DNA from: an uncultured Pleomorphomonas sp.
Lineage (GTDB): Bacteria; Pseudomonadota; Alphaproteobacteria; Rhizobiales; Pleomorphomonadaceae
Assembly: GCA_937868725.1 (NCBI GenBank)
Contig: CALMMQ010000099.1
Location: forward strand, 1-56,879
Direction: 5' to 3'
Length of the DNA: 56,879 bases
Below are positions 1,528 through 2,283 of this stretch, in pieces. Within the stretch, counting starts at the first letter, position 1. Every line of letters begins with the position of its first letter. The notes below the pieces were generated by a model. The model did not search any database. It saw only the letters and a list, made by a program, of their open reading frames with translations, and had not been told where the DNA came from. A program made the translations under genes and the position numbers.

Positions 1528-1629
1528 TCAGAGCTTGCCCATCACGGCCTGGCGGAAGCCATAGACTTCGCGCTTGCCGGCGAACGGCACCAGCGTCACC
1601 GACCGGCTCTGACCGGGCTCGAAACGCAC
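1528..1629 (-). pseudogene. Displaced 3' end of ureB (33-codon remnant)
   Basis: On the minus strand this reads [13 protein letters not shown] through to AVMGKL and a TGA stop: the last 33 residues of a UreB protein in correct frame but with no 5' part. It is the original end of ureB, still joined to the ureB-ureC intergenic spacer. It has been pushed away from the gene by the inserted GIY-YIG segment. Similarity to the intact gene begins exactly at a GTG codon, so a 33-residue peptide could in principle be started. The nearest AGGAG is about 20 bases upstream, too far for normal initiation. Probably not translated. Confidence 0.85.
1538..1629 (-). repeat. 92-bp direct repeat, copy 1 (displaced ureB end)
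   Basis: It matches 1988-2079 base for base except position 1609 (C here, T at 2059). That difference changes CAG to CAA and leaves Gln unchanged. The two copies are exactly 450 bp apart and in the same orientation. Similarity stops abruptly at 1629/1630 on one side and 1537/1538 on the other. Confidence 0.97.
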
Positions 1630-1987
1630 AGTTGGTTCGCAAAGATCAACTCCTACTTTTCATCACACGACCTGGGAACTAGGTGGTGTCATTGTTCTTC
1701 TTGCGGAATTTGGGAATTTGGTTATAGCCGACCGACGGATCATTCGAACAAAGACTTACAATGTATTCGTTCTCTAGTCGCCTGACCTCTTGGTCGGTAG
1801 CCGTGTCAGATTCCCATATTACCTCTCGGCGGATTGTCATATCTCGGCGGGACTCTCTTGTCGGAAAATCGCGCTCGATTATCGAGTTCGAAGGGCTTCC
1901 AAAATAGGAAATAGTATCTGTCAAATCAGACCCTACATATATTTTCCCATTTGGCCATGTCACCTTATATATTATCTTCACAGTCGC
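1630..1987. mobile_element. Putative homing element between duplicated ureB ends
   Basis: Unique sequence of 358 bp lying between two 92-bp copies of the ureB 3' end. It is visibly richer in A+T than its surroundings and uses codons such as ATA, AGA and CTA that neighbouring genes avoid. It holds one gene, a GIY-YIG endonuclease-like ORF, plus about 49 bases after its stop. No transposase, integrase or terminal inverted repeat is visible. The architecture suggests a homing-type insertion that brought its own ureB 3' end; the mechanism is inferred. Confidence 0.7.
1679..1981 (-). CDS. GIY-YIG endonuclease-like protein inserted in the urease operon
   Basis: A 100-residue protein with the GIY-YIG hallmark near its start: IIY (residues 3-5) and YVG (15-17) within [16 protein letters not shown] later LENEYI segment carries a likely metal-binding Glu (E72), and a conserved-looking GYN ends in N87. 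Which arginine is catalytic is unclear; R37 is one candidate. It consists of the nuclease domain alone, with no obvious separate DNA-binding domain. The start is GTG at 1981 and overlaps the ureB stop by four bases (GTGA), so translation is probably coupled to ureB. Composition and codon use are foreign to the neighbourhood. Nuclease fold is likely; homing activity is inferred from the flanking ureB duplication. Confidence 0.82.
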
Positions 1988-2283
1988 CCCATCACGGCCT
2001 GGCGGAAGCCATAGACTTCGCGCTTGCCGGCGAACGGCACCAGCGTCACCGACCGGCTTTGACCGGGCTCGAAACGCACCGCCGTGCCGGCCGGAATGTC
2101 GAGGCGCCAGCCGCGCGCCTTGGCGCGGTCGAAGGCCAGCGCCGGGTTGGTCTCGGCGAAATGGTAGTGGCTGCCGACCTGCACCGGCCGGTCGCCGGTG
2201 TTGGCGACCTCAAGGGTCAGCGTCGGCTGGCCGGCGTTGAGCTCGATATCGCCAGCGGCGGCGATGACTTCACCAGGGATCAT
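1978..2283 (-). CDS. ureB: Urease subunit beta
   Basis: Structural subunit of the urease trimer; 101 residues, normal length, beginning [18 protein letters not shown] and containing the conserved [10 protein letters not shown] segment. The ATG at 2283 follows a GAGGAG ribosome site that overlaps the end of ureA. Its last 92 bp are duplicated at 1538-1629. The final residues are MGRL, whereas the displaced copy ends MGKL, so the present C-terminus appears to be supplied by the inserted element. Its stop codon is embedded in the GTG start of the GIY-YIG gene. The protein should be fully functional. Confidence 0.96.
1988..2079 (-). repeat. 92-bp direct repeat, copy 2 (in-frame ureB end)
   Basis: This copy completes the intact ureB gene. 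It matches 1538-1629 with one synonymous difference at 2059. Beyond 1988 the sequence switches to the GIY-YIG element, and the last codons of ureB (GGG CGA CTG TGA) differ from the displaced original (GGC AAG CTC TGA). Confidence 0.97.

Follow-up and report, generated by a model that had tools for sequence, protein, structure and literature searches.

The window, by which we mean the whole stretch of 56,879 nucleotides analysed here, starts within ureC, and its minus strand carries the gene order ureD, ureA, ureB, an insert and ureC (Table 1). The 3' end of ureB is present twice, in direct orientation. As the preliminary description had stated, the two 92-bp copies start 450 bp apart and agree at 91 of 92 positions; the sole mismatch is CAG against CAA, a Gln codon in both, and the identical core of the repeat measures 71 bp. 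A repeat of 92 bp at 99% identity far exceeds what chance can be expected to produce. The same description had placed a single 100-codon gene in AT-rich DNA between the copies, and this is what we find, the base composition of the insert being foreign (45.0% GC, with 44.6% in the ORF, against 68.1% for the window).

Table 1. Coordinates of the features at the urease locus, in window positions and in the reading order of the minus strand.
Feature	Position	Strand	Remarks
ureD-like gene	2693..3553	-	Name given by eye
ureA	2294..2596	-	Name given by eye
ureB, complete frame	1978..2283	-	Ends in copy A, two new codons and a new stop
Copy A, ureB 3' segment, 92 bp	1988..2079	-	Continuous with the ureB body
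Inserted DNA, 358 bp, 45.0% GC	1630..1987		
GIY-YIG family ORF, 100 codons	1679..1981	-	GTG start overlaps the ureB stop, TGA (GTGA)
49-bp stretch, ORF stop to copy B	1630..1678		
Copy B, stranded original ureB end	1538..1629	-	Stop at 1528-1530
ureC, 5' part	1..1480	-	Cut at the contig start; named by similarity to the urease alpha gene of locus L052

Copy A completes an intact ureB, as had been proposed: the product of the frame matches Urease_beta (PF00699) at E 1.5e-46 and NF009682 at 169 bits, the cut-off being 129. Copy A continues into the insert, ending ATGGGGCGACTGTGA, while copy B continues into the end ATGGGCAAGCTCTGA. The ureB C-terminus reads MGRL in place of MGKL, the latter being found by eye in 12 of 19 relatives of the same taxonomic family. 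The 542-bp stretch formed by both copies and the insert is single in its own genome, where a ureB query found copy B as the sole other long match (1540-1629, 99%), together with four short and weak ones (27-45 bp, 82-93%).

No inverted repeats of at least 10 nt were found at the ends of the insert, which holds one internal 14-nt pair (86%); terminal inverted repeats and a transposase, the hallmarks of DNA transposons and insertion sequences, are absent, and the single ORF has no Pfam match. Rfam gave no match in 1400-2350 up to E 1, which indicates that no known intron is present, and ureB is complete as a separate frame, which bears out the earlier view of an insertion with neither intron nor intein. 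The motif ACTGTG is found both where the inserted ORF starts and across the other junction (CGACTGTGAAG and CAACTGTGCGT; window 1965-1987 and 1607-1650), which may be microhomology or chance. The window opens, within ureC, with the same 55 bp that close contig C3 of its genome; it is a break in the assembly, and no truncation, that divides this gene, the remainder of which lies at the end of contig C3. The 55-bp overlap suggests a final assembly k-mer of 55.

The junction was compared with that of 19 other genomes of the taxonomic family, 13 of them from the same genus. All 19 have one ureB tail, with the insert unmatched at E 1e-3, and none has a duplicated end; the ureC start is in view in 17 of them and outside view in L096 and L105. 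The ORF shows a presence/absence polymorphism at one site, since it is missing at ureB|ureC in each of these 19 genomes, and the single ureB end without insert indicates that the second tail and the insert are derived. Copy B is the stranded original end, as the preliminary description had it. The ureB end of the 19 relatives differs from that of the window by 10-28%, whereas copies A and B are 99% identical, so that the extra copy is local and young; such near-identical tails argue against import from another species. According to this comparison, copy A was copied from its own locus or came from a near-identical strain. The claim that the element carries a replacement tail is not supported by it, and an element class of that kind is weakly supported.

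The gap between ureB and ureC measures 729-1080 bp in six relatives, with a recognisable small gene in five: an ORF matching MazE_antitoxin (L089), PIN-domain ORFs (L095, L097, L103) and a GFA ORF (L099). In the relatives this junction looks like a cargo hotspot, and the cargo genes left no second ureB tail behind.

The window protein has no match in Pfam or NCBIfam up to E 1. Its relatives form a tight family with a consensus ending in GYNxWPK, of which 6 out of 29 members weakly match PF01541 (best E 0.0055; the window protein is unmatched) and five touch the PADLOC HEase model (best E 0.0034). There are 22 invariant columns in 29 chosen rows, and Y5, Y15, G17, E70, N80 and G85-Y86-N87 are invariant. 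The conserved (G)IY ... Y(I/V)G motifs, the Glu and the Asn, hallmarks of the GIY-YIG superfamily, are present here. An AlphaFold2 model built from the family alignment has a pLDDT of 85.6, and Foldseek against BFVD returned nine matches at E <= 0.001; all seven named ones are GIY-YIG or intron endonucleases, and the best comes from Mycobacterium phage Gaia (E 3.8e-8). Foldseek against the PDB and a PDB sequence search gave nothing significant. The ORF product is predicted to have a GIY-YIG fold related to that of homing enzymes, in agreement with the identity first read from its motifs. By eye, there is no separate DNA-binding domain in the 100-residue protein. Across 81 members, 3 to 37 residues follow the GYN motif, which may mean that the stop codon comes from the DNA in which the gene lands. 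Public annotation names five of six plasmid homologues 'GIY-YIG nuclease family protein'; Pfam and NCBIfam scarcely register this compact family, though it occurs in many phyla.

Within the order, 6 of 397 genomes carry a family member; the count is 5 of 398 for the phylum and 4 of 385 for the class, each of these three samples including the window's own genome. One related taxonomic family has 6 of 119, and the four samples overlap. The own genome holds one copy of the ORF. With the window protein as query, homologues occur in 6 of 72,556 plasmids and in 3 of 50,697 phage records, two of which are one phage. Viral contigs searched with this single protein gave no match, and neither did E. coli genomes searched with the DNA of the L060 ORF. 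Among 84,980 species genomes, 313 candidate stretches encode a relative, and the best 80 of these 313, many from metagenome-assembled genomes, belong to Pseudomonadota, Bacillota, Bacteroidota, Planctomycetota, Cyanobacteriota, Acidobacteriota, Actinomycetota, Chloroflexota and others, including two archaeal genomes (Nitrososphaerota). The family is thus patchy and mobile-looking across bacterial phyla. In the tree, the closest kin of the window protein are L008 and two members from cas3|cas5d junctions, L003 and L016.

Two pairs of related loci in different surroundings have nothing but the ORF and a short leader in common, as far as the contigs extend. For L033 and L049 the common segment runs from -33 to 275 (only 172 bp are available upstream in L033), and for L081 and L083 from -55 to 292 (only 53 bp downstream in L083). 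The leader of about 55 bp common to L081 and L083, beyond which the upstream DNA differs, corresponds in L083 to the last codons of the upstream gene, and it may be a piece of a former host gene that travelled with the ORF. Three Thiobacillus genomes carry the ORF at two different places in one gene row (L020 and L038 versus L046).

Members of the family recur between cas3 and cas5d of type I-C CRISPR-Cas systems in Alphaproteobacteria (L003, L011, L016, L017, L018, L021, L024, L036, L054, L155 and L165-L168, with L009 in antisense); this site was named by Pfam in L003, by annotation in L155 and elsewhere from DNA similarity or by eye. Within one taxonomic family, the ORF is present there in 5 of the 17 genomes with a credible cas5d DNA match, an eighteenth genome, G1142, being left out with a cas5d match over 33 bp only. 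Two of these five copies are interrupted (L166, L168) and L167 lacks the C-terminal motif; in the main set, 3 of 85 ORFs have an early stop (L024, L078, L080). Broken copies are expected if the gene is dispensable. The cas3|cas5d gaps of related genomes are too variable to place the borders of the insertion.

Other cas neighbours assigned by Pfam are cas8c|cas7c (L087), a position downstream of cas7 (L005, L006) and one upstream of cas3 (L045). Further members lie at hisH|hisA (L050, with GATase and His_biosynth; L065, by similarity), beside mrr (L084; L075 by eye) and, by eye, in integron-like and toxin-antitoxin-like neighbourhoods. In L087 the ORF (4001-4303) has a four-base ATGA overlap with both neighbours, cas8c and cas7c, and in L050 (4001-4300) it is fitted between hisH and hisA, with GTGA at the ORF end. 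We considered and set aside a role in CRISPR-Cas. Among the 83 distinct loci, 14 lie next to cas genes (identified by Pfam in L003, L005, L006, L045 and L087, and in the rest by similarity or by eye), yet ten of the 14 represent the single cas3|cas5d site, belong to the clade nearest the query and include several broken copies. A preference for operon junctions was likewise discarded: a potential start codon lies no more than 10 bp from a co-directional stop in 18 of 84 ORFs, which is probably not above the proportion in ordinary bacterial genes.

If duplication of a gene end were a property of the family, direct repeats should straddle the ORF in its relatives. In 84 relatives (L003-L006 and L008-L087, or 83 distinct since L004 and L017 are from one genome; L007, at a contig end, was excluded), the upstream and downstream flanks of the ORF, each of at most 700 bp, were compared with each other; 73 of the 84 offer the full 700 bp on both sides. 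Only matches at E <= 1e-10 were inspected, 50 of 520 control positions from the same loci reaching E 0.01. At the stricter level, a straddling repeat is present in 5 of 84 relatives versus 5 of 520 control positions (Fisher p 0.007, at a threshold picked after the data were seen). L069 is the only one of these five relatives with a gene 3' end at the matching place in both copies: its repeat, of 194 bp and 95% identity, ends at the stop of a DUF4015 gene, to which the nuclease ORF is antisense. Gene ends do not coincide between the two copies in any of the five strong control repeats, although some of these repeats contain or touch a gene end in one copy. Taken alone, L069 gives 1 of 84 against 0 of 520 (p 0.14), and duplication of gene tails is therefore not shown to be commoner here than elsewhere. 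When an identity of at least 90% is required, 3 of 84 relatives (L026, L057, L069) stand against none of the 520 best control hits (p 0.003), a contrast that points to an excess of close repeats in general and says nothing in favour of tails.

The remaining candidates were rejected as gene ends. In L044, considered as a decayed tail, 58 bp from the interior of the glycosyl transferase gene that lies upstream recur downstream of the ORF (84%), with no gene end; L013 is MITE-like by eye, and a control position in the same locus also gives a hit; in L128 the repeated segment is the nuclease gene, copied in tandem; L057 has a 137-bp repeat in a stretch that is integron- or IS-like by eye; and L026 has REP-like 49-bp repeats, which could be a target duplication. 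When flanks were ranked against the flanks of other loci, 11 of 89 reached the top rank with 400 bp (3.6 expected) but 5 of 89 with 120 bp, and the mean rank was not clearly shifted; these counts include the window and L128, and the 400-bp count also L013. The preliminary description had expected homologues to be flanked by a duplicated gene end: L069 fits cleanly and the remaining 83 of 84 do not, so that the absence of such ends is nearly, not wholly, uniform. Most insertions of the family are clean, or too old for traces.

L052, from Rhabdaerophilum, contains a family member between ureB and ureC, fitted stop to start. It has no second ureB tail, the only straddling match being weak (65%, E 0.004). 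In the full tree L052 lies far from the window protein, but on a long branch. The independence of the two urease insertions could not be retained, as an AU test does not reject a single origin (p-AU 0.179).

The GIY-YIG superfamily has been surveyed (PMC1564403), and several known systems invite comparison. PMC3630166 describes mobile ORFs (mORFs) of fungal mitochondria, in atp6 of Allomyces macrogynus and in atp6, atp9, cox2 and nad3 of Glomus sp., where inserted tails are 64-81% identical to the gene of related species and native tails 91-98%; the ORF in Glomus atp6 is LAGLIDADG. As in those mORFs, an endonuclease ORF lies here in a gene end, one tail completes the gene and the native tail is stranded downstream. 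Unlike those mORFs, which bring a foreign tail, the window has tails that are 99% identical, and its ORF, which lies in an operon of a bacterium, encodes a GIY-YIG protein of 100 residues. The suggestion that the locus is a bacterial version of the fungal arrangement therefore holds as regards the gene end on both sides of the ORF and fails as regards the inserted tail, which is native, not foreign (91/92 identical).

Like the seg genes of phage T4, the family comprises stand-alone GIY-YIG ORFs between conserved genes, with no intron or intein; unlike them, the family is rare in phage records, and duplicated gene ends go unmentioned in the available part of the review PMC2988022. PMC13096335 reports that SegB of phage T6, a GIY-YIG enzyme, drives segmental amplification under selection. 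The window could resemble that system in that breaks by a free-standing GIY-YIG enzyme lead to local duplication between microhomology stretches, a feature of SegB, and it differs from the amplification in phage in having one duplication, which flanks the nuclease gene itself. Searches on GIY-YIG with CRISPR, type I-C and cas3 found no paper, and those on GIY-YIG with urease no matching title; judged by title or the opening of the abstract, no bacterial case of such anatomy was found among the papers listed, in a search that covered few subscription journals.

The explanation that we regard as probable, with some reserve, is that a free-standing homing-type GIY-YIG nuclease gene was recently inserted in the last codons of ureB and that a 92-bp target duplication kept ureB whole. 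As expected of such a gene, the ORF lies in no intron or intein and is present at a site that is empty in relatives; we infer the duplication step and any homing. The nuclease gene would move by way of a break in recipient DNA that it either makes or takes advantage of. Repair would then copy out to a donor fragment and return, by a template switch, 92 bp upstream of the departure point, leaving the duplication; fill-in of widely staggered nicks could alternatively produce it. No Ku gene was found in the own genome, in a search whose control matched 1 of 14 genomes (Bacillus subtilis). This lowers the probability that a staggered break was repaired by end-joining, and we lean towards template switching, short of proof. 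A useful operon would tolerate insertions that leave the interrupted gene complete, and selection among insertions would suffice to explain the preservation of ureB. Translation of the ORF would be coupled to ureB through the GTGA overlap, and ureC would retain its own upstream sequence behind copy B. Several points speak against this explanation: nearly all relatives are without gene ends flanking the ORF, L069 alone being not significantly above the controls; our searches found no donor element; the protein has by eye no separate DNA-binding domain and no significant match in the PDB, by fold or by sequence; no Ku gene was found; and L052 is without a second tail.

Three other explanations were weighed. 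A small gene might have entered a permissive hotspot by host recombination, its product being uninvolved in the insertion. The small genes in the ureB|ureC gaps of relatives would fit such passive cargo, as would the integron-like and toxin-antitoxin-like neighbourhoods of the family; we hold it to be rather unlikely, given that the cargo genes of the relatives left no second ureB tail and that the protein has a predicted nuclease fold related to homing enzymes. The 99% identity of copies A and B, where relatives differ by 10-28%, weighs against the proposal of an element that arrives with a ureB end of its own and homes into ureB genes lacking the insert, in the manner of the fungal mORFs. 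The anatomy does match the Glomus and Allomyces hybrids (PMC3630166). The member in L052 also lies between ureB and ureC, with one origin not rejected, and the 55-bp leader common to L081 and L083, read in L083 as the end of the upstream gene, suggests that some host sequence can travel with the ORF. The lack of a second tail in L052 and the clean tail in only 1 of 84 relatives nevertheless make this element quite improbable.

It would also be conceivable that two strains, or a repeat, were wrongly joined in assembly, the genome being a draft of 128 contigs with 4.56% contamination. The probable k-mer of 55 is shorter than the 71-bp identical core, so that the assembler needed reads or pairs to resolve the repeat. 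The copies, however, differ at one base and each has a unique flank, the ORF is intact with its start fitted to the ureB end, and L069 has a similar anatomy; an artefact is very improbable indeed.

A broader proposition, which we consider unlikely on the whole, is that these genes form an unnamed, phylum-spanning GIY-YIG family of about 95 residues, among the smallest autonomous mobile genes of prokaryotes, which would insert at gene ends and junctions and at times duplicate the 3' end of the host gene, leaving that gene complete and the ORF translated through a stop/start overlap. The locus itself offers what appears to be a young bacterial insertion of which both junctions can be read. Its anatomy resembles that of fungal mitochondrial genes, but the duplicated tail is native, not foreign. 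Since the family occurs in many phyla, many insertion sites can be compared, which may help to establish how intron-less nuclease genes reach new sites.
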